Shown here: piece after piece, positions 6,419-29,626 of the stretch
Position numbering within the stretch: the stretch's first letter is position 1
How the letters are laid out: every line of letters starts with the position of its first letter
Assembly (NCBI RefSeq): GCF_020405205.1
Contig: NZ_CP084469.1
Location: 1,674,001-1,738,000 of the forward strand
Direction of reading: 5' to 3'
Source of the DNA: Natrinema salinisoli
Lineage (GTDB): Archaea; Halobacteriota; Halobacteria; Halobacteriales; Natrialbaceae
Length of the DNA: 64,000 nt
Translations under genes and position numbers: made by a program
The notes under the pieces: model-generated
What the model was told of the DNA's origin: nothing
The model's database searches: none
What the model saw: the letters and a program-made list of their open reading frames with translations, nothing else

Positions 6419-6651
6419 AAAGGGAATTCGCCCTTCAGTGGACGCCCGCCCATGGTCCAATGCGAAAGCTCGTCTTCGAACCCCAATCCGAGGGCGAATA
6501 CTCGTGGGCTCGCATCGAGTTCGAACTATGCGAGTCACAGTGGCGAGAAGTGGGTATCGAGTACCTCGAGGAAGTCTCATTCGTCAGTGACCACGGAGAA
6601 GAGACTGCGCCATCCCACCCTCATCTGGACGGAGGCGACACCGATGAGTAG
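6415..6651 (+). CDS. Hypothetical protein, 78 aa
   Basis: A small soluble protein with alternating hydrophobic and charged residues typical of a beta-sheet domain, ending in an acidic tail ('LDGGDTDE'). It overlaps the preceding and following genes by four and eight bases. No family is recognised. Its conserved placement just ahead of the coiled-coil gene suggests joint function with it. Confidence 0.6.
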   Translation: MKREFALQWTPAHGPMRKLVFEPQSEGEYSWARIEFELCESQWREVGIEYLEEVSFVSDHGEETAPSHPHLDGGDTDE

Positions 6652-7555
6652 CGTTCCTACCCCCGGTGAGGTCGACATCGATACACTCGTGCAGGCGATC
6701 GATCATCTCCAGGAACAAAACGAGCGACTCACCGAGCGCGTCGATACTCTCGAAAGTGACCTCGAACAGACCCAAGACAAACTCGAGGGGCTCGAAGCTG
6801 AGAAAGCAGACCTCCAGGAGACAAACGAACGCCTCCGTGCCCGTCTCAAGGACTGCGAACAGGAAACCACACGGCTTGACGCACTCACAGACGCTACGCG
6901 CAAGCGATCGGGAATGAACAAACAGCGTATCGAGGAACTCCAAGCGCGCGAACTCGAAAAGGGTGCACATCTCCTCGCAGAGACCGTCGATCATCATGAG
7001 ATCGATATCGACGGTGATCACCTCGAACGGATCACGAAAGCCAACGACCGAACCTACTATCGACTCCCCCAATCGGACGATCCACTCGACCGCGGTGGGA
7101 ACGTCGCACTTGCCCACGGTGACTTGCTGCCAATCCAGCAACTCTCCCGAATGGACGAGGAGATGCTTTGCTCGACGGCGAATGCGTTGCCAACGCGCTT
7201 AGCTGCAAAGCTGTGGAAAGCGCGTACTGACTCGAGCGTCGGTGATAACCTGTGGGAGTCCGGCTGCAAGGGGATCAAAGAATACGTCAAGGCGAGTGAC
7301 CTGAAACACTGGATCCGCCGACAGGAGCCCGGAACGAGCGAGACGTACGCAAAGAAGCTCGTCTCCCGAACGATCGATGCCGTGCTCGATCTCTCGAATC
7401 ATCGTGTTGCGGTTCGCAAACGGACTGAACGAAAGAACGGGCTCGAGTACACCGAACGTCGGCTCGTCCTTCCCACTGATGCAGCAATCCCGGGTGAGAC
7501 CCCGGACTCGAGCAAACCAGAACAAAATCCGGAGACAGCTGGCGTCCACAGGTAA
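6644..7555 (+). CDS. Coiled-coil protein with conserved C-terminal domain, 303 aa; intact paralogue of 485-1380
   Basis: The N-terminal third (about residues 12-105) is a continuous heptad pattern rich in Glu, Leu and Lys, predicting a long coiled coil and oligomerisation. After the marker 'MNKQRIEELQARELEKGAHL' comes a compact domain with 'TYYRLPQSDDP', 'LLPIQQLSRMDEEML', a basic 'LKHWIRRQE' helix and 'RTERKNGLEYTERRLV'. The last part looks like a winged-helix DNA-binding end with a basic beta-hairpin. I know this type of gene from haloarchaeal plasmids but not its function. A DNA-organising or partition-like role is a guess. The start at 6644 gives the eight-base overlap with the preceding gene. 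A broken copy lies at 485-1380. Confidence 0.75.
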   Translation: MSSVPTPGEVDIDTLVQAIDHLQEQNERLTERVDTLESDLEQTQDKLEGLEAEKADLQETNERLRARLKDCEQETTRLDALTDATRKRSGMNKQRIEELQARELEKGAHLLAETVDHHEIDIDGDHLERITKANDRTYYRLPQSDDPLDRGGNVALAHGDLLPIQQLSRMDEEMLCSTANALPTRLAAKLWKARTDSSVGDNLWESGCKGIKEYVKASDLKHWIRRQEPGTSETYAKKLVSRTIDAVLDLSNHRVAVRKRTERKNGLEYTERRLVLPTDAAIPGETPDSSKPEQNPETAGVHR

Positions 7556-9002: not shown

Positions 9003-10160
9003 CTATAGTCTGAGAATTCCCTGCAACCGCCGAAGAAGAGATCCCTGTTGTGTCTCTCTCGAAAGATCAGACGACTGCTCTCGAGCCGTAGACCGACCTT
9101 CATATGTCTCGAGGCGGCGCTCGAGTTGTTCGATACGCGCGGTCTTTTCGGCCAGTTGTGTTTCGAGGGCCATCGTCTGCTTTCGAAGCAGCGAAACTCG
9201 CTCTTTGAGGTAGACCTGCTCACGATCTCGCGCGGACTCTACACCTTGAGCCGTCACTTCACTCTGTCCCGTCTTAGACGGCTCGTAGAACTCAGAGGTG
9301 TGCTCAATCGCTCGAGTGATCGTCTTCTCACCATACGTCGACCCATCCGCAAAGTGTACCTCTCCCCATTTCGGACGGTCCAATTTGGATCGTCGAAACA
9401 ATCGATCCATCTGGACGGCATGGCCACCTGTCCAGAACGCGAGCAAACAACACAACGCCATATCCGCCTCCGACTGACTCGTATATCCGACAGTCGACCC
9501 GTTCCAGAGACGGTCGAATTTATCGCCGTTCGATGCGTTTCGTGCTTTCTCGAGTAGTTCGTCGTCCGAGAGGGAAGGTGCCGAACCTGACTCTGGCGGA
9601 GACTCCTCAGGAACGCCGTCATCGCTCTCCCGAACGTACATTGAATGAACCTCCTCGAGTTCGCGTTGCCGATATTCGATTTGCGTTGGTGTTCCCGAGA
9701 CGAGATCGCCGGTAACTGTAAAATATCGGGCGTGGTCGTACATCTCGACGTGGCCACATCGATTGCGACCTTCGGGAAGCTCACCACGTACCAGAACGTG
9801 ATAGCCAGTCCCTGATGGCGAGACTTCCGTATACGAGTCTAACTGACCGACTATCGTTTTTGCTTGCTCCGTTGGCCGTCCAGTATCCGGGTCACGACAG
9901 TCGTCCAAGTCCACTCCGACAAGTGGATCAGACGTCGTAAACACAAACCCAACCCCATCGACTGGCGTCGAACCCGACTCCACATACTCGAGAGCACCCT
10001 CGAAATCACTCCACGTTCCCTCATCCGTTGTCGATGCGAACCCCGCTGTCTGGGGATCGATCGGTACCTTCGTCGTCTCGCCGTTGCGCTTGGTTTCTTT
10101 CCAGCAGATCCACTGGTCTCGAGTACGCAACATCTCCGGGACAGTTATTTCATCAATCAT
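9003..10160 (-). CDS. Primase-polymerase (PrimPol, NrS-1-like) with C-terminal coiled coil
   Basis: Residues 1-165 match the PrimPol catalytic domain of the phage NrS-1 polymerase/plasmid primase type. It shows 'QWICWKE', the metal-binding 'VGVDLDDC' (about 81-88), 'SPSGTGYHVLVRG' (114-126) with the nucleotide-binding Ser/His, and 'YDHARYFTVTG' (141-151). A small helical domain follows (about 205-300; 'SEADMALCCLLAFWTGGHA' and 'LDRPKWGE'), as in helix-bundle partners of such primases. The last 80 residues form a coiled coil rich in Leu, Glu and Arg. Such enzymes start DNA synthesis on single strands and suit element replication or conversion of transferred single-stranded DNA. It starts five bases after the VirB4-like stop, in the same operon. 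No helicase domain is fused. Confidence 0.8.
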   Translation of the reverse strand: MIDEITVPEMLRTRDQWICWKETKRNGETTKVPIDPQTAGFASTTDEGTWSDFEGALEYVESGSTPVDGVGFVFTTSDPLVGVDLDDCRDPDTGRPTEQAKTIVGQLDSYTEVSPSGTGYHVLVRGELPEGRNRCGHVEMYDHARYFTVTGDLVSGTPTQIEYRQRELEEVHSMYVRESDDGVPEESPPESGSAPSLSDDELLEKARNASNGDKFDRLWNGSTVGYTSQSEADMALCCLLAFWTGGHAVQMDRLFRRSKLDRPKWGEVHFADGSTYGEKTITRAIEHTSEFYEPSKTGQSEVTAQGVESARDREQVYLKERVSLLRKQTMALETQLAEKTARIEQLERRLETYEGRSTAREQSSDLSRETQQGSLLRRLQGILRL

Positions 10161-10165
10161 AGCTC

Positions 10166-12295
10166 TCAGTCAGAGTGCCCGAGGGAACGCTGACCGCCAC
10201 CCGTCGTGCGGTCAGAAACATCACCACTATCCTCAGACTGGCCGGGCAACTCCGATCCAGACTGTGACTTGGGCTCGAAGTCGATCACTGCCGTCTCGTC
10301 TTCCATCGCTCGGACTTCGATCCCGCGCCATTCACCGTCGACGCCGACGAGCGCTTCTGAGTAGCCTGTCCGATCGTTGCCAGGCACAGCCTCCTGGATG
10401 AAGCGCATCTGTGCGGAATTGAGTCCGAACTCGTCGGCCCACTCGCGATCCATGCCATCGAGATGGTGGAACTGCTTGATCGCACATTGATCGATAATCG
10501 CCTCTGATTCTGGGTGCTGGAAGAACTCGTCGACGGTCTGCGTCACAAGTCGAATCGAGAGGTCGTGATGACGGTGGTGCCGAAAGACAATCTCGAGGTA
10601 CTCGAGACTCGCTGCGTCCTGCATGATATAGCGAGCCTCGTCGATGACGAAGACGACCTCTTTGTCCGTCTCCTTTGCGCGCTCGTAGACCAGCGATATC
10701 AGCAACTGCATAATCAAGCTCGTGCTTCCACCGAGACTCCCCTCTTGCTGGGCGAGATCGAGATAAATCACCTTCTCGTCGCGAATATCGAACGCTGTCT
10801 CACGGCCCAGGTTCTCGTAGCGCCCGTCTTCTGCGAACGGCCGTAACTGGTCGATAAGCCACGTCGCATCGTCTCGAATCTTCGTCGCCTCCTCGTCCGT
10901 CCGGACGACGTATTCGGTCGGTGTCTCGACCATCTCTTCGAGGATATCGAGGACGTCTCGCATCGTCGGACTCTCCTTGTGATGAGTCGCGATATCGTCG
11001 GTGATACCATTCCTCGCATACGACTTCTCGATCGCCGTCTCCAGCGTAGTCCGCCGATCCCCGAGTGAAATCCCACGGAGCGCGAAGTAGTTCGACAGGA
11101 AACTCATCACGCTATCGAGCTTTTCCCGATACGGACTCGCGTCCTCACCCATCGCCTGCTGGACGCGTTCGGGCGTGGATTTGATTTCGAGCGGGTTCAG
11201 TCCCATATCCCCGCCGATCGTCACTCGTTCACCACCGAGCGCTTCGGCGACACCGGCCCAGTTGTTCAACGGCTCGAGGATGATCCCGATTCGGTCCTCG
11301 CTTTGCTCGATCGACCGGATGAAGTTCTGTTTCGAGCCGAACGATTTGCCAGAACCCGGATCGCCGATCGTGAACATCGCATAGCCGTTCTCTCGAGCGA
11401 ACGGATCGATCGCGACCGGGCTCTGATTCTTCCAGTGAGCACCGAATTCGACGCCACCGTCCTCGAGAATCGTCGCGTTGTGCGGCGACGCAAGCAGTGC
11501 ACCAACTGCCCCACCCAACGCAGTGGCCTCCCGACCGAACGGATTCGCGCCGATCGGGGCTGCAGCCTGAATTGCCAGATCCTGCTTGCAAATCGCCGTT
11601 TTCGGCGAGAGCCCAGCTGGCTGTTCACGAAGCCGACTGCGAATGACGCGAACGTCCTCGCGCAACACCTCACGTGAATCCGCGCGCACCGTAATGAACA
11701 TCCCCTGATCGAACACGCGACTCCCGTTCTCGACGCTTTTGTACGTCGACAGCGCCTCGTTGGCTCGCTCTTGGAGATAGCTCCCACGAACAGTTCGCTC
11801 GAGATCTGCATCGGCCTGAAGATCGTCGGCAACTCGCTGGAGTTCGTCTCGAGCTTGCTGTTGGCTCTTCGGTGTGACGTGAACCGTCAGATCGAACTCG
11901 ATGTCCGTGAGCTCGAAGAGGTCGGTTAGATAGCCATCCTTCGGATAGTCGGGATAATCGGCGATGTAGAGTGTGGAGGTCCACTGATCGCCAACACGAG
12001 CGGTCCGCGTATCCCACTCGATCGCTGCCGGTGCGATAACGTGCTGGTGATGCTCCGCGATCTCGTCGAGGACCTCACCTTCCTTACTCCCGTTCTTTAG
12101 GGCCGTCTCCTCGAGGAGATCCGCGAGCTCGACCTCCTCAGGATCCTCGGATCGCCAGTAGTCCCATGCAAACGCTACAAGAAGTGTGACCAGTGCCGTT
12201 CCCCCAATATAGAACGCAAGTCCGGCCTGGGTTCCCGAATCAGGAAGCGAACTCTGCAGTTGATCGACGATCGAAAGCATATGCATCGCGGTCAT
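10166..12295 (-). CDS. virB4-like: VirB4/TraC-type secretion ATPase
   Basis: The 709-residue protein has one hydrophobic segment at about 25-44, a VirB4 N-terminal region, and a FtsK/HerA-type ATPase core. Walker A is 'GDPGSGKS' (311-318), Walker B 'VVFVIDEA' (547-554), followed by the sensor strand 'IRLVTQTVDEF'. VirB4 ATPases power pilus assembly and substrate transport in type IV secretion and conjugation. The start codon overlaps the stop of the gene at 12292 by four bases, so translation is coupled. Position in an operon with PrgI-, VirB6- and VirB2-like genes supports the call. An archaeal HerA helicase is less likely because of the membrane segment and this context. Confidence 0.85.
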   Translation of the reverse strand: MTAMHMLSIVDQLQSSLPDSGTQAGLAFYIGGTALVTLLVAFAWDYWRSEDPEEVELADLLEETALKNGSKEGEVLDEIAEHHQHVIAPAAIEWDTRTARVGDQWTSTLYIADYPDYPKDGYLTDLFELTDIEFDLTVHVTPKSQQQARDELQRVADDLQADADLERTVRGSYLQERANEALSTYKSVENGSRVFDQGMFITVRADSREVLREDVRVIRSRLREQPAGLSPKTAICKQDLAIQAAAPIGANPFGREATALGGAVGALLASPHNATILEDGGVEFGAHWKNQSPVAIDPFARENGYAMFTIGDPGSGKSFGSKQNFIRSIEQSEDRIGIILEPLNNWAGVAEALGGERVTIGGDMGLNPLEIKSTPERVQQAMGEDASPYREKLDSVMSFLSNYFALRGISLGDRRTTLETAIEKSYARNGITDDIATHHKESPTMRDVLDILEEMVETPTEYVVRTDEEATKIRDDATWLIDQLRPFAEDGRYENLGRETAFDIRDEKVIYLDLAQQEGSLGGSTSLIMQLLISLVYERAKETDKEVVFVIDEARYIMQDAASLEYLEIVFRHHRHHDLSIRLVTQTVDEFFQHPESEAIIDQCAIKQFHHLDGMDREWADEFGLNSAQMRFIQEAVPGNDRTGYSEALVGVDGEWRGIEVRAMEDETAVIDFEPKSQSGSELPGQSEDSGDVSDRTTGGGQRSLGHSD

Positions 12296-13392
12296 TGATC
12301 GGCCCTCCGCTGATGATCGATCGTCGGATGATCGCGAATCGCATCCTCACCGTTGTCGTATTCGTGTTTCTCGCTGTTCCAGAAGTCCATCGAGAGGACG
12401 AACAGTTCGACCGTCGTGAGTCGATGTGCGGACCACCCCGGTACCTTCTGGACGAACTCCGTCTGAAGGCTCCGACATCGGTTCTCGAGTTTCTCGAACA
12501 TGGCCGCACGGATCTCTGCGTCGGCCATATCGTTCCGACGAGTCACGAACGGATTGACGAGAAAACCGACCACCGGAAACGAGGTGAGCTTCTCTGCAGG
12601 AGATTGTTCGTCCTGATAGCGGTCGTAGACTTCGAACGGATCGACTTGAACACCGATGAAGTATCGGATCTGCTGAGTTCCCTCGAGCTCTCGAGGACGT
12701 TGTTCGCGATATTCCTCGAGCAACTCCCTGAAAACCGGATTCTGCTTGACATCACTGTCGGTGAGCCGTCCGTCAATTCGATCGATCAGCTTTGCGACCG
12801 GAAACGGGCGAGTCGTCGCGTGGAACGTGAGAGTGAAATCGAGTTCTTTGTTCGCGAACTCCTCCCCGAGACGCTGTATCTGTGCCCAGTCACCGGACAT
12901 CGCGAAGTCCATGTTTCCGGGATCGATCTCGAGGTACGCTTCCATCGTGCCATCCGAACGTTCGATCGCACCCGTACCGGGCCACGCACGCCTGATATTC
13001 GTGAGATCCTGCGTTCGCTCGTCCGGTTTGAACGGCGTATAATTCACGAGCCCACCATCGGTACTCGACTCAGTGGACTCAGTCGTCGCCGCTGTACTGT
13101 ACGTGAATCGGGGACGTTTGCAGTAGTAGCGATAGATATCTCCCAGCCACGTCGAGGCTGGCAGATGACTCGGCGACGAGTAGACGATTGCACCACCGGC
13201 GATGACTCCCAAGAGAACAAACGGTACGATTGCACCATCGAGCCCAGTGAACCCACCAACGAGGAGACCTGCTATCGGAAATCCAAGCAGGACATAGACG
13301 TCGCCTTCCTCGATATTGAGTAGCGAGATTCGATTTTCTTCGCCCAGTTCATCCATGATTCGACGGCCAGCTGCATCTCTTTTGTGTGACAT
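12292..13392 (-). CDS. PrgI/VirB3-VirB4-N-like membrane protein, 366 aa
   Basis: After a short cytosolic start, two hydrophobic segments (about 32-48 and 51-70) precede a soluble domain of about 280 residues resembling the N-terminal, non-ATPase part of VirB4 (strand-rich, with 'AYLEIDPGNMDFAMSGDW' and 'TLTFHATTRPFPVAKL'). In Gram-positive conjugation systems the corresponding small PrgI-type membrane protein is often joined to or next to VirB4. It overlaps the VirB4-like gene by four bases. Its probable role is anchoring the ATPase at the membrane channel. Confidence 0.7.
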   Translation of the reverse strand: MSHKRDAAGRRIMDELGEENRISLLNIEEGDVYVLLGFPIAGLLVGGFTGLDGAIVPFVLLGVIAGGAIVYSSPSHLPASTWLGDIYRYYCKRPRFTYSTAATTESTESSTDGGLVNYTPFKPDERTQDLTNIRRAWPGTGAIERSDGTMEAYLEIDPGNMDFAMSGDWAQIQRLGEEFANKELDFTLTFHATTRPFPVAKLIDRIDGRLTDSDVKQNPVFRELLEEYREQRPRELEGTQQIRYFIGVQVDPFEVYDRYQDEQSPAEKLTSFPVVGFLVNPFVTRRNDMADAEIRAAMFEKLENRCRSLQTEFVQKVPGWSAHRLTTVELFVLSMDFWNSEKHEYDNGEDAIRDHPTIDHQRRADQ

Positions 13393-14535
13393 TCAGTAGT
13401 ACCCCGGATCGTTCTCAGTTCGACGGTACACCGGGATACCGTCCTGGCCATACGCGTCTGTCGCAACGTTATCGTGGTCGGTTCGTCCTCCAGTACTGCC
13501 GCTCGAGTCCTCTGATTGGGATGAGCCGCTACTCTGACGCATCTTCGAGACAGCAGAATAGCCGACAGCCGCTTTCGGTCCCCACGTCGCGGTTGTCGCT
13601 GCAGCAGCCGGACCAGCAACGACTCCAGCGCCGACTGCAGCACCTGCAGTCACTCCGACCCTTGTCGTTGCGCCGATTATGCTTGCCGTCATCGGACTCG
13701 CATACGCAAACGACTTCCAGACGATGACGATCGAAAGCAGTGGCAATGTTACCGCGAGAAGGTAGCTCAGGAACGAGCTGTCCGGAATAAGTGCGGAGTC
13801 CGTTCCCTCCCTGAACAGGAGCTCATAGCCCTTGAACAGTAGCGCCACCGGAATCGGCATGATCGCAAGCGGCACGAACTTCATACAGACCGTTCTCGAG
13901 ATCCGCGAAACGACGGGAAGATTGCCATATGCCAAAGCCAGCCCTATCGGCATCGCGTAAATCAGGATATACAACATGATATCGCGAAGGAAAAAGAGGG
14001 CTTGAAGGATCCACATCGCCGTGGCACCAACTCCCGTAAGGAAAAGCGCAAGGAGTGGATTCGGAATGGTTGTCAGAAGCAAGTCAGCCATATCGTCAGT
14101 AACTGTTGATATATCTGGCAGGAGCGCAATCGTGAATCCATCAACTATGTAAAGAACCAGAACGGCGAGCCAGTACCAGGTTACAATTAGAAACGCACCT
14201 GTCCAAGCGCTGCGTTTCGCTTTTCGAGTCTCGTATATACTGCCGATATTGAATATTCGAATCGTGTGCCGTCCCTGAATACAGGTCACAAGTAGTAACA
14301 ACGCAACAAGCATGATATCGCCAGCAACGAGACTGCTATGGATCTGCTCCCATGGCACGTTCGATGGCTGTCCGAACACGAATGCACCATTCGTTTCCGG
14401 GGTTGGTGTCCCAAAAATTTGAGCTGTGATCGTGTCATATCCATCTACCAACCCGTCCTGAAACCAACCAATGATCTTGTCAATTGCGTCTTCGAACCAC
14501 TTGCTCCCGATATCGGAGAATGACCACGTCAACAT
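13393..14535 (-). CDS. VirB6/TrbL-like polytopic channel protein, 380 aa
   Basis: About six to seven hydrophobic segments lie between residues 70 and 320, preceded by an amphipathic N-terminus ('FEDAIDKIIGWFQDGLVDG') and followed by an Ala/Gly-rich stretch (about 305-335) and a disordered Ser/Gly/Asp tail. This architecture is that of VirB6/TrbL inner-membrane channel components. Sequence identity to bacterial VirB6 is not obvious and the call depends on topology and operon position, between the lipoprotein and the PrgI-like protein. Its stop is directly next to the next start and its ATG overlaps the lipoprotein stop. Confidence 0.65.
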   Translation of the reverse strand: MLTWSFSDIGSKWFEDAIDKIIGWFQDGLVDGYDTITAQIFGTPTPETNGAFVFGQPSNVPWEQIHSSLVAGDIMLVALLLLVTCIQGRHTIRIFNIGSIYETRKAKRSAWTGAFLIVTWYWLAVLVLYIVDGFTIALLPDISTVTDDMADLLLTTIPNPLLALFLTGVGATAMWILQALFFLRDIMLYILIYAMPIGLALAYGNLPVVSRISRTVCMKFVPLAIMPIPVALLFKGYELLFREGTDSALIPDSSFLSYLLAVTLPLLSIVIVWKSFAYASPMTASIIGATTRVGVTAGAAVGAGVVAGPAAAATTATWGPKAAVGYSAVSKMRQSSGSSQSEDSSGSTGGRTDHDNVATDAYGQDGIPVYRRTENDPGYY

Positions 14536-15377
14536 TATGATAACTCCTCGATTTCGACATCACAATCATCAGAGTCTGTCTCAAGATAGTGGATCATATA
14601 CTCGAGAGCGAGATTCTCTTCATCGTGGGCCGCGAAGAGACGGACAGTGAACCGTCCGTTTCGTCCAACCGAGTTGCACTTCGATCGCGTACTTGCTGGT
14701 GAGAAGGGTCTTGTACTGCTATAGAGGAGAACAGTCTCGCCAGCAGGGATCGGTATTAATTCAGCATTCGCTTCAAACTCATCCTCCGGATCGTAGATCC
14801 CACTCTTCCCGACTTCATCATAGCTTTCGTGCGTCGGAAAGGGAACATCTCCTTCAAATCGTAACGCGGTAGCCGCAGTTGGGCCAGTTCCCCGGTTCGC
14901 CACAGAAAGGATCGCCTCTGCTTCCGTTTCGGAATCACTTGCTCCATCATACATTGCTTCGGGGTGGTCTCGCCCCAACCTGAGTTCCGAAATCTCGAGT
15001 TCTGGCTCGAGCGTAATCGACGTCGTCTCGACCGTCTGTCCGTCGGAGAGTCCAATGAGTTCGTACTCGCCAGGTGGATAGTCCGTCCCGACCTTGACCA
15101 TCGTGCGGGACACCCCCGATCCAATCGTTCGGCGAGCGAACAGTTCGCCGGAGGGGGCAACTACGTTCAACTGATCAACCGCGTCTCGCTCGAGTTCGAT
15201 CACCAGATCGAGATCGACCATTTCACTGCTATGGATGATCTCCCCACCGGAGTCAGCTGTTGGCTCGGTCTCTCCAGAATTACTCACCGTTGAACAACCG
15301 GCGAGGCTGGTGCTGATTCCAGTAAGAAGGCTTCCGAGGACGATGCGTCTGTGTGGGGTATATTGCGTATCTGTCAT
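14535..15377 (-). CDS. Secreted lipoprotein, 280 aa
   Basis: The start at 15377 gives a signal peptide with arginines before the hydrophobic core ('HRRIVLGSLLTGISTSLAGC'), a Tat-type lipobox ending at the conserved Cys, followed by an acidic Ser/Thr/Glu linker. The rest is a beta-rich extracytoplasmic domain; the carbohydrate-binding-like spacing of strands suggests an Ig-like or CARDB fold. The ATG overlaps the previous gene's stop by four bases (ATGA), which decides this start over the longer frame reaching 15509. It is probably a surface-exposed component of the secretion or pilus apparatus. Confidence 0.75.
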   Translation of the reverse strand: MTDTQYTPHRRIVLGSLLTGISTSLAGCSTVSNSGETEPTADSGGEIIHSSEMVDLDLVIELERDAVDQLNVVAPSGELFARRTIGSGVSRTMVKVGTDYPPGEYELIGLSDGQTVETTSITLEPELEISELRLGRDHPEAMYDGASDSETEAEAILSVANRGTGPTAATALRFEGDVPFPTHESYDEVGKSGIYDPEDEFEANAELIPIPAGETVLLYSSTRPFSPASTRSKCNSVGRNGRFTVRLFAAHDEENLALEYMIHYLETDSDDCDVEIEELS

Positions 15378-17077
15378 AGTGTTTCTCTGATTTTCAAGAA
15401 GGATCCGATCCGCTTCGCAGCGTTCAGTGCGACTGCGAAGGGAATTGCATATCGAACGAAATCGACCAGAAGCGTAAACCAGCCCGTCGGGGTCGCTAGT
15501 GGGTGCCACGTTTCGGTCGCTGTATCACCGACATACGCCGGGCTATGCGATCGCCACGAGCCCGGGTGGTACTCTGCCGTGTAGATTCCCGGTTGGTCGA
15601 TTGTGATCTCCGCAACGCCGTCCGCATTGGTCCGTACTCGCTGATCATCGATCGTAATGTATCCCTCGCGGGAATCATGGCCGATCACTGAGAATCGAGG
15701 ATCATCGAACGGACTCTCGAGCATGATTGGCGATCCCGTTTCGGCATCGCGAAGCGTGATCGCGACCGTCACCGCGGTCGCGTTCGAATCGACGATCTCG
15801 ACGGAGAGGTTACTCTCACGGATCTCGCGCTCTGATCCCCCGTCGGGTTCGACGATATCTGCGGAGACGCCACGAACGATTCCCTCGACAGTGACGGCAT
15901 CCGGATCGATGATATCGTGGCGAAGGGCGAGTCCGTACGATCGCGTGTATGTATCGGAGACCACATCGACGTCGACGTTCTCGTGGATCGATGGCTCCGG
16001 GGACGTACTCTCAGTTCCCCAGACCTCGAGAATCTCCGGGCCATCCCGGATGGGCTCTGTGCGCGGCCCCAACTCAGATGGATACGCATGGACGTATACC
16101 GGCAGTGCATCGGAGTCAACAGTCTCTCGGCCCCTCTGTGTTGCGTGGGTGAGTTCGTCCCAGTCAGTCTCTCGAGCGGTGTAATATCGCCACACGCCAC
16201 GGACCTTCGCTTCGCCATCGTCCGACAGCGTGTATCCGTGCCACGGCTGGGCTTGATAGATCGCAACGCCGCTGTCGCCGTTGGGATACGACGCATGATA
16301 GATCGATGTCCGCAGCTCATAGATTTCGACTTCGAGGTCCTGGGAGACGGTCACTCGGTCGGTACTCACCTCCGTCTCGTTGCCAACCCTGCTCTTGACT
16401 CGAGCACTGATGTCCGCCTCGAGCGTTAGCGTCGCCGACCCACCTCGGTCGAACTCGTAGTCGAAGGTCGGTGTCTGTGTCCCCCCGATGGTGTCGACGA
16501 CATCACCATCGCGCAGGAGTCGGATTTCGTCGATTCCGTGGGTTTGGATCGACGAGTTGTTTTCGAGGCGGATGCGATAATCGACGAGTCCACGGAGTTC
16601 GCCTTCTGGTGCGATGTAGTGAACCGTCTCAGTCGCGTCCAGATGCGCTCTCGTCGACGGATGAATCGCAAACGTCGTCACGTGGGCGTCGGCGATGAGT
16701 GTAGAATCCGTGATCGTCGCGTGCTCAGGATAAATGGAGGTTCTCGCATTGCCTCCATCGAGCGATTCGTAGTCGGATGCTGTCCACCGCTCGGCCGTGT
16801 CAGGGGGCGTTTTGAACGTGATGTCCGTACAGTTGCCGAGTTCCTGCATCACGGTCCGCTCTTCGCCGTATCGCTCCTCGTACTCGGCGTTACTTATGCA
16901 CGCATTCGGTGCGTTCGACCACAGCGTTGCTGTCTCGTTTTCGCCCAATCCGTGTTCGTCGGTGTCCATCTGGACCGAAGCGTCGGCGCTAACGATTCCG
17001 GTACCGCTGAGGGCAACGACGATTCCGACGGCCGCAAGGAGGTGTGTCCCTCCGAGTAGCCGTCCCTCGAATCGCAT
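15374..17077 (-). CDS. Large secreted membrane-anchored protein, 567 aa
   Basis: An N-terminal signal peptide (about residues 1-30) is followed by a 490-residue extracytoplasmic region rich in Thr, Asp and Glu with an Ig-like terminal domain ('ITIDQPGIYTAEYHPGS', about 495-515), then one hydrophobic segment near 535-553 and a short basic tail, so the protein is anchored by its C-terminus. Several Asn-X-Ser/Thr sequons could be glycosylated. Its place in the transfer operon between the VirB2-like gene and the lipoprotein suggests an adhesin or mating-pair surface component. No sequence family was recognised. Confidence 0.65.
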   Translation of the reverse strand: MRFEGRLLGGTHLLAAVGIVVALSGTGIVSADASVQMDTDEHGLGENETATLWSNAPNACISNAEYEERYGEERTVMQELGNCTDITFKTPPDTAERWTASDYESLDGGNARTSIYPEHATITDSTLIADAHVTTFAIHPSTRAHLDATETVHYIAPEGELRGLVDYRIRLENNSSIQTHGIDEIRLLRDGDVVDTIGGTQTPTFDYEFDRGGSATLTLEADISARVKSRVGNETEVSTDRVTVSQDLEVEIYELRTSIYHASYPNGDSGVAIYQAQPWHGYTLSDDGEAKVRGVWRYYTARETDWDELTHATQRGRETVDSDALPVYVHAYPSELGPRTEPIRDGPEILEVWGTESTSPEPSIHENVDVDVVSDTYTRSYGLALRHDIIDPDAVTVEGIVRGVSADIVEPDGGSEREIRESNLSVEIVDSNATAVTVAITLRDAETGSPIMLESPFDDPRFSVIGHDSREGYITIDDQRVRTNADGVAEITIDQPGIYTAEYHPGSWRSHSPAYVGDTATETWHPLATPTGWFTLLVDFVRYAIPFAVALNAAKRIGSFLKIRETL

Positions 17078-17117: not shown

Positions 17118-17537
17118 TCACCATGGAATGAAGTTGACGCACTCGGCTAACGGAAGCCCCATCGTAGAGCCGGCAACCGTATACAGCGGTCCGAGGACCA
17201 GCAAGATGACCGCGGATTTCATCGCTGTCCGCTTGTGCATCTTTAGATCCTTCTTCTGCTCGAGGTTCATCGTGAACATTTCGACGAGCGAGTCGACTTG
17301 CCAGACGACGACCAGACCCATGAGGCCGATCGCGGTCGTGATCTGAAAGAAGCCGGAGATCATTCCGGGTAACCCTTCAGCGTCGCAAACGACGTTGTCC
17401 TGTGCGACGACCGGGTCGACAGCGATAACTGTCAATAGTGCAAGGGCCCCAAGACCAGTGCGTACGACTCGAGGGAATAGTTTGGGTGATTCGCCCGTCT
17501 CTTCTGAGTGGATTGAAATCGCGGGTTTCGAATACAT
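17118..17537 (-). CDS. Small three-helix membrane protein, VirB2/TrbC-like pilin candidate
   Basis: The 139-residue protein has a hydrophobic first segment (about 29-46) that could be a cleaved signal ending near 'PVVAQD', then two further hydrophobic segments (about 60-80 and 108-130) separated by a charged cytoplasmic loop ('NLEQKKDLKMHKRTAM'). Signal plus two helices is the layout of VirB2/TrbC conjugative pilins. It is the first gene of the operon, directly behind a strong TATA promoter, as expected for an abundant subunit. The length is somewhat above usual. Two Cys residues are present. Confidence 0.55.
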   Translation of the reverse strand: MYSKPAISIHSEETGESPKLFPRVVRTGLGALALLTVIAVDPVVAQDNVVCDAEGLPGMISGFFQITTAIGLMGLVVVWQVDSLVEMFTMNLEQKKDLKMHKRTAMKSAVILLVLGPLYTVAGSTMGLPLAECVNFIPW

Positions 17538-18490: not shown

Positions 18491-18604
18491 GAGAATCTCG
18501 TCGTCGATATTCTCGGTGAAACTGTTCCACTTACTGCAAAGCGCGTTGTGGAAACAGGAAGCCCTACCCTCAAGGAGCGAACCGCGTCAGCGGTGAGCGA
18601 GTAG
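18491..18604 (+). mobile_element. IS200/IS605-type remnant: 3' end of tnpB
   Basis: Reading from 18491 to TAG at 18604 gives a frame ending 'AKRVVETGSPTLKERTASAV' then 'SE', which is the C-terminal signature of haloarchaeal TnpB proteins. Nothing upstream belongs to TnpB; the catalytic RuvC and zinc-finger parts are gone. The same DNA folds into a nested hairpin (18562-18606). The scar sits directly behind the truncated VapC gene on the opposite strand. Confidence 0.75.
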
Positions 18605-18606
18605 GG
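18562..18606 (+). ncRNA. Nested hairpin of TnpB right-end RNA (remnant of an omega/sot-type RNA)
   Basis: CCCTAC (18562-18567) pairs with GTAGGG (18601-18606), and inside it ACCGC (18581) pairs with GCGGT (18590-18594) around a GTCA loop. TnpB guide RNAs arise from exactly this right-end region overlapping the tnpB 3' end. Whether it is still transcribed without TnpB is unknown. Confidence 0.5.
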
Positions 18607-18702
18607 TGGGGAAGAAGTCACTGAACATGAAAATCGACCAGTCTCGACCTAATCGTCGATCTGATTCGGCAACTACTGTTCAGGCTGGGGACGTCTCGCT
18701 GT

Positions 18703-20769: not shown

Positions 20770-20991
20770 TCAAAAGGTATTGCCAGGCCCAGCGACTCGC
20801 ACTTCGGACTTCGTGGCGAGGACGCGAAACTCTCCGACTGAGAATCTGACCTCGAGGTCATCGCTCGCCGAGTCGACGAGTTGCTTGAGCGCTTCGATAT
20901 CGATCACTCGGTGCAGTTGGTACGCGTCATGGTCGAGTCCTTGCTCTTCGAGCACGTCGACGATCTCGAGGAGGAGACTTCGATCACTCAT
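20770..20991 (-). CDS. Small HalOD1-like protein, 73 aa
   Basis: The protein ('LLLEIVDVLEEQGLDHDAYQ' ... 'LEVRFSVGEFRVLATKSEVRV') resembles the stand-alone HalOD1 output domain of haloarchaeal signalling proteins: two helices followed by a beta-hairpin. The start ATG at 20991 overlaps the ArdC-like gene's stop by eight bases, so the two are translationally coupled. A direct partnership is inferred. Confidence 0.55.
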   Translation of the reverse strand: MSDRSLLLEIVDVLEEQGLDHDAYQLHRVIDIEALKQLVDSASDDLEVRFSVGEFRVLATKSEVRVAGPGNTF

Positions 20992-21922
20992 CCTCACTCA
21001 CCTCACCGACAACGTCGATAATCCTCTCCGCTGTCGAACTGATCCGATTGAGACGTTCGAAGATGGCCTCCGGCTCGTCGCCTTGCCACGCAGCGAGATA
21101 GAACGCAGAGCCGCTCGTATCGAGCCCGAAGTACCGTCCAACAATGTAGCCGACCGCTTCGGACTCGAGTTCTCGTTTTGAACGGTCAGTCTCGTCCCCA
21201 CGATCACTGTGCAACAGTGCGTGGGCGTACTCGTGGATGAGCGTCACAGCGAGGTCGGCACTGTTCTCTCGGTCATGGACCTCCACCAGCGGTCGTTCCG
21301 CAGAAGAGCGATACTGACAGACGCCCTTGGCGTTACCGTGAGGCCATTCCTCGGGGGGAACGACCACGGCGTCTACCTCGAGCAACAGTGCTGCCTCGAG
21401 GAGGTGTGTGGCCACCTCGTCGCCCTCTCCGATTGCCTCGGTCTCGAGTTCGGGGAGTGACTCCCCTTCCGTCTGCGAGATATCGAACACTGGTGCTGGC
21501 CGAAAGCCGACGAGTCCCTTCTTCCATTCGCTAGGATCGGTCTCGTCGTACTCACACTCGCTCCGGTCGTGATACGATGCCGAGTTTCCACACTCGGGGC
21601 ATTTGCTCGCGATGATCGGTGCCCAGATCCAGATCGCTTTCTCGCCTTCCGTCACGTGCCGATCGAACTCGTTTTCCCACGTTCGGTAGCCGGCGATACG
21701 AGTCGCATGCGGACACTGGAGTTTGATCAACAGCGTGTTCCGAGGAGAATAGTCGTGGAACTCACTCTGGACGTCGAGCCACTCCTTGAACTGCTCGCTC
21801 GAGACGGCGTCGTCAACCTCGCCAACGAGTTCCTCGAGCCATGTTTCGATCGTACTGTGCATCTCGTCGTTCCTGGTGTTCGAATCGTCGAACGTTTCCC
21901 GGGTACAACTAGTCATAGTCAT
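20984..21922 (-). CDS. ardC-like: ArdC-like antirestriction protein with zinc metallopeptidase motif
   Basis: Residues 20-150 match the ArdC N-terminal single-strand-DNA-binding domain ('FHDYSPRNTLLI', 'GYRTWENEFDRHVTEGEKAI', 'WIWAPII'), here with an inserted knuckle 'CPECGNSASYHDRSEC' (about 108-123). The C-terminal part carries the zinc peptidase motif H230-E-Y-A-H234 with a following conserved 'ELESEAVGYIVGRYFGLD' helix, the third-ligand region. ArdC proteins protect incoming plasmid DNA from host restriction, so the gene fits a transferable element. The length, 312 residues, is normal. Confidence 0.85.
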   Translation of the reverse strand: MTMTSCTRETFDDSNTRNDEMHSTIETWLEELVGEVDDAVSSEQFKEWLDVQSEFHDYSPRNTLLIKLQCPHATRIAGYRTWENEFDRHVTEGEKAIWIWAPIIASKCPECGNSASYHDRSECEYDETDPSEWKKGLVGFRPAPVFDISQTEGESLPELETEAIGEGDEVATHLLEAALLLEVDAVVVPPEEWPHGNAKGVCQYRSSAERPLVEVHDRENSADLAVTLIHEYAHALLHSDRGDETDRSKRELESEAVGYIVGRYFGLDTSGSAFYLAAWQGDEPEAIFERLNRISSTAERIIDVVGEVSEDE

Positions 21923-22151: not shown

Positions 22152-23000
22152 CTACTCCCACCACTGACTGCGCTCTGGGAATACAATGGTCGACCACCGA
22201 GTCAGTGCGATCGAACATCGTCCGTTGTACCAGTTCTTTGCGGCCGCCCTGAACCGCACCCGCTCGCCCTTACAGACCATCGTCTGCCGACTCTTCGACC
22301 AGATCGTAAACTTCGTTCGTCCCGTTTCGTCTTCGATCAATCCCACCTGTTGGATAGCCGTACTCGAGGGTTCCCACAGCTCAATTACGCGCCCGTCCAC
22401 GCTGACCTCTCCTCGGCTGATCTCCTCGAGTCTCCCAATCGGCACGATCGTCCCTGCTTCGTGTTGCATTTCCTCTTTCGTCGCCATCACCGCCTCGAAC
22501 AGCTCTGCGTCCTCGAGGACTCGACTTGCGATCCGTTTCGCGATTACCGCTCGTGTGTAGCCACCGGTGACGTCTTCGGCTAACCGCTGTGCCTGCCGAT
22601 TGATTTCTCCTACCTCCGTTCGCTCGAGTTCCTCACGAGGATCGGCTCGCTTGTTCGTCCGCTGGTCGCGACGTTCCTGTTCAACTACTGCTCTCGTTCG
22701 TTCCACCCGTCCCTCCTGTCGACCGACTGCCGCCTGGACACTGATCCGCTCGAGTTCCTCCTCTCTGGCTCGAATGCGTTCTTCCTGGGCCAGAGTCGCT
22801 CCATAGATCCGATCGTCGCTCGTATCGACGATTCCGTCTGGGTGGTTCGCATCTACCTTTGCCTGAATCTCCATCTCCACTGTGGCCCGGAACTCTGGAG
22901 TCTCATCGACGATATTCAGATGCTCTTCTCGAACGCCATCTTGTTCGTACGCTTGTTCATCGACCGAAACGACCTTGCTAACCGACTTCCTACTAGACAT
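22152..23000 (-). CDS. OB-fold DNA-binding protein (RPA-like), 282 aa
   Basis: The C-terminal third (about 190-275) is an OB-fold ('VSVDGRVIELWEPSSTAIQQ' followed by 'VGLIEDETGRTKFTIWSK'), as in archaeal RPA-type single-strand DNA-binding proteins. The N-terminal two thirds are helical and very charged, with a coiled coil (about 60-130). The ATG at 23000 ('MSSRKSVSK') is preferred to an upstream in-frame start. Proteins of this shape are typical of haloarchaeal plasmids and would coat single-stranded DNA in replication or transfer. Confidence 0.75.
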   Translation of the reverse strand: MSSRKSVSKVVSVDEQAYEQDGVREEHLNIVDETPEFRATVEMEIQAKVDANHPDGIVDTSDDRIYGATLAQEERIRAREEELERISVQAAVGRQEGRVERTRAVVEQERRDQRTNKRADPREELERTEVGEINRQAQRLAEDVTGGYTRAVIAKRIASRVLEDAELFEAVMATKEEMQHEAGTIVPIGRLEEISRGEVSVDGRVIELWEPSSTAIQQVGLIEDETGRTKFTIWSKSRQTMVCKGERVRFRAAAKNWYNGRCSIALTRWSTIVFPERSQWWE

Positions 23001-23095
23001 TGGAATTCTAACTTCCAAAGGCGCTCACTCGGCGTCTTTTCCGACACCACGACTCTCCAGCCTTAGCTCTCGTCGCACTCCAACGTTCCATCATA

Positions 23096-24967: not shown

Positions 24968-27900
24968 ATGCCGACAGAGAAAGACGCGACGCCGATACCT
25001 GAGGAACCGACGACTGCATCTCTCGAGAACTCGAGTTCGACTACTGCTAGAGACGAGACCAGCAGTGACTCGAGTCCACAGATCAATGACGACACGACTG
25101 GAGTTCTCACGGACTCACAATCCCACGAGTTACGGACGTACATCGAAATTCGACCGTCGACGAACCCCCTCAACGCCACGGCCGTTTCACAGGCAACGTC
25201 ACTGCTGTACGAGAGTCTGCGAGAACTCTCACACTCAAGTGTCTGGTCGACACTGCGAACCAGAACCCAAAAACCGATCGTCGAGTGGCTACTCGTTGCT
25301 GACGGTCACTCAGACGCCAGCATTCGATATCTCGTCGGGACGACACACGACCCATTTCTCAGCGAGCTCGAGGCGATCCTTCGGACGTGGTTTCCGGACA
25401 CGTACGAATTGCGGCGAGTCGAGTGGCATCCGCGTCAAATCGAAGCCTCGCGTTCGATACCCACGGAAAACGAGCGTTCGTCGTCATCGACTGTCGGCGA
25501 TTGCGAGACACGGACGTGCCGAGAGCAACCGTACGTCACCGGTGTCGAGTATCGCGCTACTGCCGAAGTCCGCCGGGACTGGCAGACTTCGCTCGCAACG
25601 TTCGACGAGATCACTGATCGTTCCTCACAGCGACGGTCGGACGAAGACGAGTCGAAATCACGTCGCGTCCCGATCGCAACGCTCGTCGAAACGCTCTGCG
25701 ATTCGGCCGTCCCCATCGTGTATCAGGTCGTCTGTTGCCCGATCGGCGATCAGCGGGCAGATGCGGAACAGTACCGATACGACCTCGAGCGCAGCCTCGT
25801 CACGCCCGCTGATCGTTTCTTCGAGTTCGTTTTCCCGAAAGCGGACGAGAAACCCGATCCGAGACATCTCTCCCCCTCCTACCGAGACCGCCTCGCCGAT
25901 CTCGAGACGCGAGACCTCCGACGGACGTTCTGTCTCTCCGCTCGAGCGGTGGCGTTCGCAGATGAGCGCGATCGGGAGCACGCTGACGCGATCGTTCACA
26001 GTCTCGCGAGCGTATTCGGACATCTGAGCGGGCCGTTTCATACCGTTCGAGGGCACGTCACCACGGACAGCAACCTCCACACGGGCACGCTTCCACCTGG
26101 GAGCCGACTCTTCGTAGCGATCCGTGAGCGAACCTGTCCCGAACCGACGTACGACTCCCTCGAAACCCGCCTTCCGTGGAAGACACACGAGAGTGCTGGT
26201 ATCGTCGTCTCGCCCGAGGAACTTCCCGGATTCTGTCTGATCGATGGCGTCGGTCTGACGCCGACCGGGCAACGAGCACTCGGCGCTCGACAATCCGAAC
26301 GAACCGGGCTTCCACTGCCATCACCGACCGATCTCGAGCGATATACGGGGACTGGTCAAGCGCTCTGTATGCCCCTCACTGATGACCGCCAACCATACGA
26401 GAACTCGTTCGTCCTTCCGCCATCGCTTCAGGACAGACATCTCTTCGTCGTCGGCGATACGGGTTCGGGGAAATCCGTCCTCACGGCGGGAGCAATGCTT
26501 TCGAACCTCGAGGCGACGGACGGTCCGGAGATCCTCTTCGATTACAAGGGTGGTGGGACAGCCGAAGAATACCTCCGAGCACACTACGCAGAACACGGCG
26601 ACCTCGAGAACGTCCGCTACTTCGACCTCACGAAACTATTGCCCGCACTCTCGATCTTCGATATCAGGTCACTACTCGACGCCGGCCTCTCACGCGAGGA
26701 AGCGCGATCGAGGATTGCGGGTCACTACGAGGAAATCCTCGCGGGATTGATGGGCGAAGAACAGTACTACGGGGCGACGGAATCGACGAAGGCGATCCGA
26801 AACCACCTTCGGGCATTGTTCGATCCGATTCACGGCTCTGAGACCGTCTCGCACAAAGACCTCTATCGAGCGCTTCAGCGCACGCTGAGTGATCGAACGC
26901 CACCGCCGACCTCGGATGACCGACTCACCGAATACTTCGCCGGATTGCTCGAGCGCGACCGAGACGTCTTCAACAAGGTCCTCGGCGGTGCCGTGGCTCG
27001 AGTCGAGATCATCGCGACCGACGATCGGCTGGCACCGTTATTCGATCACGTCCATACACTCCCAGAATCAGACGACCGCAACGAAAATGGTGACCACGAG
27101 ACTCTCGAGGATTCGTCTCCGCACTTCGATTTCATCGATGCCATCAACGATGATGTGGTCATCATCTTCGATTTTGGCGGGATGGAAGAGCGAATCAAAC
27201 GCGCGCTGACGCTCGTCCTCCTCTCGAATCTGTGGACGGCACTGAAAGCGCGATCAAAGAGCCCGGAAATGGCCGAAAACCCTCTCTTAGTCAATTTATA
27301 TCTCGAGGAAGCGAAAGACGTCGTCGCAACGCAACTGGTCGATACGCTCCTCTCGCAGGGGCGATCGTTCGGCCTCTCCCTCATGCTTGGCGTTCAGTTT
27401 CCGAGCCAGCTCGATTCACCGGATCCGTCGAATCACACGTATGAGGAAGCCCTCAACGAGATTGGGACGTTCATCGTCGGCAACGTTAGCATCGAAGACG
27501 ATCTCGCAAAGGCGCTCGCGACCGATACCATTCCGCCGAAGCACGTCGCCAGACGCCTCGCAGCCATTCGCCACGGCGAGTGGCTCGTCCGCCCTGCTGC
27601 GGAGTTCGGCTCACCCGTTCCACGGCCGTTTCTCGGACGATCACTGCCCGCACCTGACGGTCACCCAGTGAGTGAGACTCCTCTCGATGATGAGCGATCA
27701 CAGGCTTTCGAAACCGTATTCGAACTCACTGCACTCGAGACGTGGAAAGAATTTGGACTCAGTCATGAAATCCATCCTTCCAGAAGCGACACAGCGGGCG
27801 GTGAGAACGGAGCAGATGACGTCGATGACGACCCTCGTGAGGAGATACTTCGAGTAGATTCCCTACTGCCACACACGAGGCGACTCCCCGATTGCGTGAG

Positions 27901-28813
27901 CTACGACGAATCGGTCCATGCCCTCTGCTGTGGATCGTGTGAAAATCGTTATGACCCGACTATCGAAGGCATGAAACGGGCGATCGAGTGCTGTCATACA
28001 CTCACGGATGTCGATTCGGACGATATCCCCGTCTGTGATGTCAATCTCAAACTTACGCCCGAAGAGCGCGACGTCTCTGAGTGGAGCGATCGCCAACTAC
28101 TCTTCTTACAGACGGTGTACAACGCTCAGCAGCTTCGATATGATCCTCTCGAGTACGCTCTCCTTCAGGACTCGATGATCAGACTCCAGGAGTACGTCGG
28201 GATTGAAACCGACGAGATTGCTCCACTACTTGACGCCGACCTCCTCAGACACGATACGGATCACCCACATCGGCTATACTCAGTCTCTTCGGAAGGCCGA
28301 TCTGCAATCGGTGAAAGCTATCGCAAAGGTGTCGATTACGGCCACGGAGTCGGTGATCTCGACGAGTCCAGTGAACACGTCTTCGGGATTGAGGTCACTC
28401 GGCAGTATCTCGAAGAGGCGTATGCGGCGAATCCACAATCGGACGTCACCGAGGTTATTCCCTATTACGAACTCGACGATCAACACCGACTCGACCTCGC
28501 GGGTGTGAGTGATGATGGTGAGATTATCGTGACAGCCGAGGTCGAACGGATCAACCACGATATCGGACGTGCGGTGCCCGACGACTTCGATAAAATGGCT
28601 GCCTGTGACCCCGAGGCCGCAATCTGGGTCGTTATGAAACAGGCCGATGGACACAGACTGCTCTCGGCGCTCAACGACCCACTCGAGGGTGACCCACGGG
28701 TCGAGAAAACGTATGCAAAGACCACACCACCCCAACAGTTCCGGATCGACACGCCAGGGATGACGGCGGTCTATCCTGCAGAGTGGCTCCGGGATCACTC
28801 ACCAGAGCCGTAA
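24968..28813 (+). CDS. Very large VirD4/HerA-type ATPase with extra C-terminal domains, 1281 aa
   Basis: The N-terminal 480 residues are strand- and helix-mixed without clear membrane segments. The ATPase core follows: Walker A 'GDTGSGKS' (496-503), 'FDYKGGG', an acidic strand 'DDVVIIFDFGG' near 735, and the probable Walker B 'LLVNLYLEEAKD' (about 773-783) with 'GRSFGLSLMLGVQFPSQL' after it, as in TraG/VirD4/HerA proteins. A Cys-rich knuckle follows ('CCGSCENRY' about 983, 'ECCH' near 1005). The last 150 residues resemble a PD-(D/E)XK fold ('RLDLAGV' with Asp about 1175 and 'TAEVE' near 1189). It is probably the coupling ATPase of the transfer system. The nuclease-like domain is an inference from motifs. 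Confidence 0.7.
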   Translation: MPTEKDATPIPEEPTTASLENSSSTTARDETSSDSSPQINDDTTGVLTDSQSHELRTYIEIRPSTNPLNATAVSQATSLLYESLRELSHSSVWSTLRTRTQKPIVEWLLVADGHSDASIRYLVGTTHDPFLSELEAILRTWFPDTYELRRVEWHPRQIEASRSIPTENERSSSSTVGDCETRTCREQPYVTGVEYRATAEVRRDWQTSLATFDEITDRSSQRRSDEDESKSRRVPIATLVETLCDSAVPIVYQVVCCPIGDQRADAEQYRYDLERSLVTPADRFFEFVFPKADEKPDPRHLSPSYRDRLADLETRDLRRTFCLSARAVAFADERDREHADAIVHSLASVFGHLSGPFHTVRGHVTTDSNLHTGTLPPGSRLFVAIRERTCPEPTYDSLETRLPWKTHESAGIVVSPEELPGFCLIDGVGLTPTGQRALGARQSERTGLPLPSPTDLERYTGTGQALCMPLTDDRQPYENSFVLPPSLQDRHLFVVGDTGSGKSVLTAGAMLSNLEATDGPEILFDYKGGGTAEEYLRAHYAEHGDLENVRYFDLTKLLPALSIFDIRSLLDAGLSREEARSRIAGHYEEILAGLMGEEQYYGATESTKAIRNHLRALFDPIHGSETVSHKDLYRALQRTLSDRTPPPTSDDRLTEYFAGLLERDRDVFNKVLGGAVARVEIIATDDRLAPLFDHVHTLPESDDRNENGDHETLEDSSPHFDFIDAINDDVVIIFDFGGMEERIKRALTLVLLSNLWTALKARSKSPEMAENPLLVNLYLEEAKDVVATQLVDTLLSQGRSFGLSLMLGVQFPSQLDSPDPSNHTYEEALNEIGTFIVGNVSIEDDLAKALATDTIPPKHVARRLAAIRHGEWLVRPAAEFGSPVPRPFLGRSLPAPDGHPVSETPLDDERSQAFETVFELTALETWKEFGLSHEIHPSRSDTAGGENGADDVDDDPREEILRVDSLLPHTRRLPDCVSYDESVHALCCGSCENRYDPTIEGMKRAIECCHTLTDVDSDDIPVCDVNLKLTPEERDVSEWSDRQLLFLQTVYNAQQLRYDPLEYALLQDSMIRLQEYVGIETDEIAPLLDADLLRHDTDHPHRLYSVSSEGRSAIGESYRKGVDYGHGVGDLDESSEHVFGIEVTRQYLEEAYAANPQSDVTEVIPYYELDDQHRLDLAGVSDDGEIIVTAEVERINHDIGRAVPDDFDKMAACDPEAAIWVVMKQADGHRLLSALNDPLEGDPRVEKTYAKTTPPQQFRIDTPGMTAVYPAEWLRDHSPEP

Positions 28814-29626
28814 CTCACACGAGTGCGTGGTTTTCCCTTCTACAGCGTCTCTCTATCCGAACTCGAGTTCCATTACAGGCCCATACGGCGTTTCGCGTCT
28901 GTTCTGCGCTTGAGACACCACGTATGCATCACAGATCTGGCCCTCCACTGTTCATAATCGACCAAATCATCCGCAAGGACTGCTGTGGGCAGTTTCTCGA
29001 GGACGAACTAGGTGGGCCGACCGATCTGCTATTGCATCCCTGTCTGCCAAACTCGATCCCGCTTGCTCGAGTCGCGGTCGCGAGACGGGGTAGTAACTGT
29101 ACATCCTCATCGCATGAACTCGCCTGAGAAGGCCCCCTCTTCGATATCCTCCGTTCGAATTACCCTCGAGCGTTCTCTGTCTTGATGACGGAATCGGAGC
29201 TATGGGTGGAGGGAAATTCCACTACGTTCTCGAGTAGTTGGTCGAAATCGACTGTTCAAAACCGATAAACGAGGTCCGATTATGGAGGGTTCAGCCACCT
29301 CGTTTCGGTCTCTTTTGCTGGCGCGAATACGCTTCTGGTATGCCCGCTTCGCTTCACTAGACCCGTTTCAGGAAGCCTACTCGAGTTGTAGGATGATTCC
29401 AAATCCTTCTTTCTCTGTTCCTAGGATTTCCAGCTATTGCCGCACAACATCACCTTGCGGAGGTTAGAGGTGATTATGATCGTCTGTACCGAAACAAGAA
29501 CGGATCCGTGAGTGCTGTGACTGGTAATCCGATCTATGATTTTCACTATGGCCTACTGCACATGGTGAGTGGCACTGGCCCAACAGAGACGGTATGTTCA
29601 CAGCCAACGGTGAGTCCTTCTGTCTA
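28814..29626. other. Junction region between accessory block and core genes, no supported gene
   Basis: About 810 bases without a convincing gene. Short open frames exist on both strands but show neither protein character nor a start signal. The region separates the last accessory gene (24968-28813) from the core minus-strand gene uppP. No tRNA, integrase or direct-repeat end was found. If the left block is an integrated element, its right boundary should lie here. Confidence 0.5.

Follow-up and report, generated by a model that had tools for sequence, protein, structure and literature searches.

The question raised by this locus is how a conjugative element of a haloarchaeon could be nicked for transfer when no relaxase is recognised beside its mating genes. 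Archaeal conjugative systems having VirB4 and VirD4 together with few or no recognisable relaxases have been described from 2011 to 2025 (PMC3158045, PMC9905601, and PMC12857230). In the genome of Natrinema salinisoli, to which the window studied here belongs (64,000 nucleotides of contig NZ_CP084469.1), the relaxase model PF03432 has no match, and PF13814 gives partial, sub-threshold matches only, none of them in the coupling-protein gene. Among PLSDB plasmids, all 141 that carry a homologue of the coupling protein and all 99 that carry the plasmid-branch form of its C-terminal module are typed by MOB-suite as non-mobilizable, meaning that they have no recognised relaxase, and several of these plasmids possess an MPF_T mating apparatus according to the same kind of typing. 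The answer proposed here, with a probability of roughly 0.6, is that the coupling protein of the element is a haloarchaeal type IV secretion system (T4SS) coupling ATPase fused to a MOBC-like relaxase, which would both nick the element and pump it. An earlier note on this DNA had read the 1281-residue reading frame as a VirD4/HerA-like ATPase, had taken a Cys-rich knuckle and an acidic pattern as hints of a nuclease, and had suggested that such a nuclease could stand in for the missing relaxase; structure prediction and conservation of the acidic residues in orthologues were named as checks.

The reading frame opens with ATG, and its ATPase assignment is borne out by Pfam matches of the window protein to DUF87, the HerA central domain (27.1 bits against a cut-off of 23.2), and to TrwB_AAD_bind (23.9 bits against 20.5), while the Walker A motif, GDTGSGKS, lies exactly where it had been placed. 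Among 48 relatives, DUF87 is found in 38, TrwB_AAD_bind in 37, and TraG-D_C in 19. The NCBIfam HerA models score the window protein far under their cut-off, which leaves it short of full HerA family membership. An AlphaFold2 model of the motor (residues 50-955, pLDDT 84.4) superposes on DndH-C (Z 26.0), VirB4 (Z 24.2), TrwB (Z 24.0 over 381 residues, 3.8 Å), and HerA (Z 23.2); because these values are close together, the fold alone cannot choose among the four families, and it is the gene context, namely the linkage to a T4SS, that decides. Two hallmarks of a coupling protein, a TrwB/TraD-type P-loop motor and genetic linkage to VirB4, are present. The protein is thus similar to the VirD4/TrwB/TraG coupling proteins in its TrwB_AAD_bind motor, its structural match to TrwB, and its VirB4 linkage, but differs from them in carrying a C-terminal nuclease module and in lacking a transmembrane helix (highest 19-residue hydropathy of 1.45 in a hydropathy scan), so that the N-terminal anchor typical of VirD4 and TrwB is absent. 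A viral packaging ATPase was also considered and ruled out because viral contigs contain no relative of either the whole protein or the C-terminal module.

The element that encodes the protein lies in a stretch of lowered GC content (about 0.55 against about 0.65, at roughly 5-29.6 kb of the window), and its genes are listed in Table 1 together with the parts of the coupling protein. The plasmid branch has the virB6 and virB3-like genes, virB4, and then immediately the coupling gene in one T4SS operon, and Halobacterium pNRC200 carries virB4, coupling-protein, and primase genes in this order with overlapping ends. VirB4 accompanies a strong homologue in all 39 genomes that have one and is also present in 21 of 61 others, a manual tally for which the Fisher p value of about 1e-12 is only indicative because the genomes are related. 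In several congeneric species, homologous elements are likewise neighbours of uppP. A conserved, apparently non-coding stretch (29200-29480; about 78-80% identity in three relatives) lies between this gene and the coupling gene and may mark an end or the origin of the element. At two other loci, VirB4 adjoins uppP and no coupling protein was found there; these seem to be degenerate copies occupying that same chromosomal position.

Table 1. Positions in the window of genes of the element and of the parts of the coupling protein
Feature	Position	Strand	Basis
Primase-like protein adjoining virB4	9003..10160	-	NrS1-1_pol-like_HBD 2.3e-28
VirB4-type ATPase of the element	10166..12295	-	P-loop_TraG 1.2e-7
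Conserved VirB4 partner gene, VirB3-like position	12292..13392	-	synteny; identity inferred
TrbL/VirB6 channel protein	13393..14535	-	TrbL_3, 7.8e-207
Conserved T4SS-cluster protein, secreted or membrane-bound	15374..17077	-	
Small VirB2-pilin-like protein, signal-like segment and two hydrophobic stretches	17118..17537	-	sequence and synteny; identity inferred
ArdC-like antirestriction protein	20984..21922	-	ArdcN 3.4e-5
RPA/SSB-like OB-fold protein whose gene recurs upstream of that for the coupling protein	22152..23018	-	
T4CP/HerA-like ATPase (1281 aa) ending in a winged helix and a PD-(D/E)XK domain	24968..28813	+	
ATPase motor, residues about 440-935, TrwB/HerA/VirB4/DndH fold	26285..27772	+	
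Walker A GDTGSGKS, residues 496-503	26453..26476	+	
Walker B-like VIIFDF, residues 731-736	27158..27175	+	position from sequence
Cys-rich knuckle, C987/C988/C991 and C1008/C1009	27926..27994	+	
Winged-helix domain, residues about 1040-1115	28085..28312	+	predicted structure
PD-(D/E)XK nuclease domain, residues about 1130-1275	28355..28792	+	predicted structure and alignment
H1137, invariant, first nuclease helix	28376..28378	+	
D1176, invariant, strand 2	28493..28495	+	
E1191-x-E1193, invariant, strand 3	28538..28546	+	
D1206 (invariant) and K1209 (invariant in 70 coupling-protein C-termini only)	28583..28594	+	

The window contains no tyrosine integrase (the nearest lies about 45 kb further left), so the limits of the element are approximate. 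Rfam and tRNA scans of the window returned nothing. A sequence of about 81 bases (18534-18614) recurs in at least 11 other haloarchaeal loci, 74-96% identical, in both orientations and with up to 3 copies per locus; it has no Rfam match and is probably a miniature insertion-sequence end or a small RNA. The segments 919-1218 and 7097-7396 are direct repeats of each other with 75% identity: part of the coiled-coil gene at 6452-7555 is present a second time beyond an aglB-like gene, which suggests duplication or rearrangement at the left side of the element. The AglB-like oligosaccharyltransferase itself (2662-5103) stands beside a run of glycosylation and sugar-nucleotide genes, including those in the 14 kb preceding the window, which places a surface-glycan island next to the conjugative element. 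Passages of PMC9259645 describe integrated mobile elements of haloarchaea that contain fusexin, VirB4, HerA, and TraG/VirD4, the same class of gene content by that paper's annotation; those passages mention neither a nuclease domain on the coupling protein nor a relaxase.

The nature of the C-terminal module was examined by aligning 70 C-termini from named haloarchaeal genomes and folding residues 955-1281 of the window protein with this alignment in AlphaFold2. The last ~240 residues are predicted with a mean pLDDT of 90.4 to form a winged helix and then a PD-(D/E)XK core, not an unrelated fold. Past the winged helix, the model of residues 955-1281 has helix 181-199, strands 208-214, 220-226, and 232-239, helix 245-258, strand 263-268, and helix 271-282, and this modelled alpha-beta-beta-beta-alpha-beta order is that of the PD-(D/E)XK superfamily. 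In domain-wise VIA alignments the first half of the model matches MarR-type winged helices, and the second half matches EcoT38I, YaeQ, SPO1766, PaqCI, Can2, the BspD6I small subunit, and LlaBIII (Z 6-7), all of which we take to be PD-(D/E)XK proteins. These alignments, rather than Foldseek, are the source of the fold matches, for Foldseek on the two-domain model found nothing under 0.001 in either the PDB or the viral libraries; likewise, Pfam, NCBIfam, and PADLOC matched no family on the C-terminus. Even though the VIA matches are middling, with a best Z of 7.4, the assignment is strong, since the matches agree with one another throughout the list, the model is confident, and the invariant residues fall in fitting positions.

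The conserved residues fall where an active site would be expected in such a fold. H1137, D1176, E1191, E1193, and D1206 are invariant in the 70 C-termini, and across a diverse set of 28 sequences that spans all three architectures of the module the invariant positions are M1070, G1129, D1130, H1137, D1176, E1191, E1193, D1206, W1220, L1235, and G1264. Such invariance of D1176 and E1191-x-E1193 in both sets is far beyond chance and answers the question about orthologues; the acidic pattern, which the earlier note had put near 1175-1191, was correct within two residues. These residues correspond to the Asp and (D/E)-x-K of the classic site with the lysine replaced by glutamate, and the same E-x-E also occurs in MOBC sequences. 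K1209, which the model places in the helix after the strand with the two glutamates, is conserved only among coupling-protein C-termini and is not invariant in the 28-sequence set. Taken together, the model and the alignments strongly indicate a PD-(D/E)XK nuclease domain, for which DNA cleavage is predicted. The two hints of the earlier note fared differently: both the knuckle and the acidic pattern exist and the latter sits within the fold, but the knuckle, whose region gives a weak, sub-threshold TRASH-like match, occurs only in the branch of the window protein and is absent from the plasmid branch, which can be aligned to the window protein only from about residue 1022 onward. The knuckle is a lineage-specific addition outside the core.

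A PD-(D/E)XK relaxase is known in the MOBC enzymes (PMC12857230), and the module was compared with these. MobC proteins were taken from nine bacterial plasmid records, with relatives standing in for the MobC of CloDF13 itself. The MobC sequences aligned first have invariant H114, D148, and E161-x-E163 past a winged helix, and the profile alignment brings the winged helix, His, Asp, and Glu-x-Glu of the two families into register. Profiles were required for this, as hhalign of a single sequence against one MobC was uninformative. The module scores 33.1 against MOBC, where 200 column-shuffled profiles have a mean of 13.7, an SD of 2.5, and a maximum of 23.1; the nuclease parts by themselves score 24.1 (shuffled mean 11.8, maximum 18.9 in 150 shuffles) and the winged helices 22.9 (shuffled 10.7). 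The controls, haloarchaeal NucS (15.9, z 1.7) and Mrr (9.8, z -0.8), are within or near the null. The profile comparison thus places the module specifically closer to MOBC than to NucS or Mrr, at the level of likeness that NucS and Mrr have to each other (24.6), and the relation may therefore reach only the superfamily level. PF13814 (Replic_Relax), the Pfam model of MOBC, matches none of the 70 modules nor the window protein, and for this reason the module is not filed as a MOBC member; it is the manner of working of a MOBC relaxase that it appears to share. MOBC relatives were not found in viral contigs either.

Genetic arrangement adds to this comparison. In six of the nine bacterial records, mobC comes immediately after a coupling-protein gene, with an overlap in one, and this gene order is the domain order of the haloarchaeal fusion. 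MOBC proteins, such as MobC of CloDF13-type plasmids and TraX of pAD1, differ in being separate bacterial proteins of 240-250 aa and in the K/R/Y residues after E-x-E. MOBC enzymes are not known to become covalently linked to DNA. The T4SS operon, the plasmids with no recognised relaxase, and the MOBC-like profile and gene order support the suggestion that the nuclease may substitute for the missing relaxase. Other haloarchaeal coupling proteins have, in place of this module, a different C-terminal tail with a winged helix, a domain having invariant H-D, PD, and E-x-E-T-T-T, and then a primase-like DNA-binding domain. Profile alignment of this second tail with MOBC (22.5, z 4.9) brings PD and E-x-E into register, its alignment with the first module is weak (z 2.3), and 68 of 69 plasmids carrying it are typed as non-mobilizable. 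Haloarchaeal coupling proteins may therefore have a nuclease-like tail as a rule.

The module is present in 115 of 242 genomes in a sample of the haloarchaeal class and is found in three architectures. It ends coupling proteins of 1150-1500 residues, ends shorter HerA/TrwB-type ATPases of 800-890 residues, and occurs as predicted stand-alone winged-helix nucleases of 270-310 residues, two of five of which are near tyrosine integrase genes. These stand-alone proteins are paired divergently with a conserved gene of about 275 aa and are candidate trans-acting relaxases or regulators. The window itself is chromosomal; its genome has two further homologues of the coupling protein on other contigs, and homologues are also on plasmids, including that of Halobacterium salinarum NRC-1 (pNRC200, gene VNG_RS11050). 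Between orthologues 77-85% identical, dN/dS is about 0.06-0.07 in the module, about 0.11-0.12 in the ATPase, and 0.26-0.35 in the N-terminal 180 residues; the module, with the lowest value in the protein, is thus under strong purifying selection.

The ATPase family, nuclease fold, conserved site, T4SS linkage, purifying selection, and MOBC-like profile were computed, and a pathway of transfer can be proposed beside them. The winged helix would recognise the origin of transfer of the element, and the putative metal-dependent nuclease, with H1137, D1176, E1191, E1193, and D1206, would cut one strand there, strand and site specificity being expected of it. The ATPase hexamer, already on the DNA, would pump the freed strand to the VirB4/VirB6 channel, the RPA-like protein would coat the strand, and the primase of the element would restart synthesis in the recipient. 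A further proposal, which we hold tentatively and at somewhat below even odds, is that the relaxase is permanently fused to the coupling ATPase, so that the nickase stays in the donor and the strand is exported without a covalent pilot protein. Several points count against a fused relaxase. Relaxases normally act as separate proteins; no oriT was identified for the element; the coupling gene of the window is 12.5 kb away from the virB4 operon; and the shorter ATPase form is on chromosomes without homologues of the window's T4SS genes within roughly 18 kb around it.

The main competing explanation is a DNA-end processor without site specificity, in which HerA-NurA-like degradation or resection would supply single strands for transport or repair and no oriT would be nicked. 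The HerA-family character of the motor is compatible with this, and the single-stranded DNA for archaeal Ced/Ted transfer has been suggested to come from HerA-NurA resection (PMC9905601). However, the module has a PD-(D/E)XK fold rather than the RNase H-like fold of NurA, is preceded by a winged helix, resembles MOBC and not NucS or Mrr in its profile, and exists in stand-alone versions without an ATPase, which make such a processor rather unlikely. A HerA-type anti-phage or anti-plasmid ATPase-nuclease carried as cargo for defence or exclusion would fit the weak PADLOC matches of the ATPase to mad8 and HerA models and the presence of DndH among its best structural matches. The mad8 model also matches VirB4, so its match is generic, and the gene lies within T4SS operons and tracks VirB4 in its presence; given the operon context, a defence role is rated as improbable. 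HerA-NurA and HerA defence complexes do pair a HerA-type motor with a nuclease, but in the haloarchaeal protein the nuclease is PD-(D/E)XK and fused in cis, and its context is a T4SS rather than repair or defence.

The module could also have lost catalysis and only recognise the transfer origin or a separate relaxosome, with another protein doing the nicking. Replacement of the lysine of the classic D-(D/E)XK motif by E1193, together with the restriction of K1209 to the coupling-protein family, could be explained in this way. Since MOBC relaxases have the same H, D, and E-x-E pattern and the acidic residues are fully invariant within the region of lowest dN/dS, loss of catalysis is considered very improbable.

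A coupling ATPase fused to a MOBC-like relaxase is accordingly the reading preferred here, and it makes the module a concrete and widespread candidate for the missing archaeal relaxase, one that can be tested directly by mutating the five invariant residues. If it is true, it would explain why typing tools label such plasmids as non-mobilizable. A nickase retained in the donor would, if true, set this transfer apart from the relaxase-piloted mode that is classic for bacteria, and the fused nickase would possibly be a general answer to the problem of the missing archaeal relaxase.
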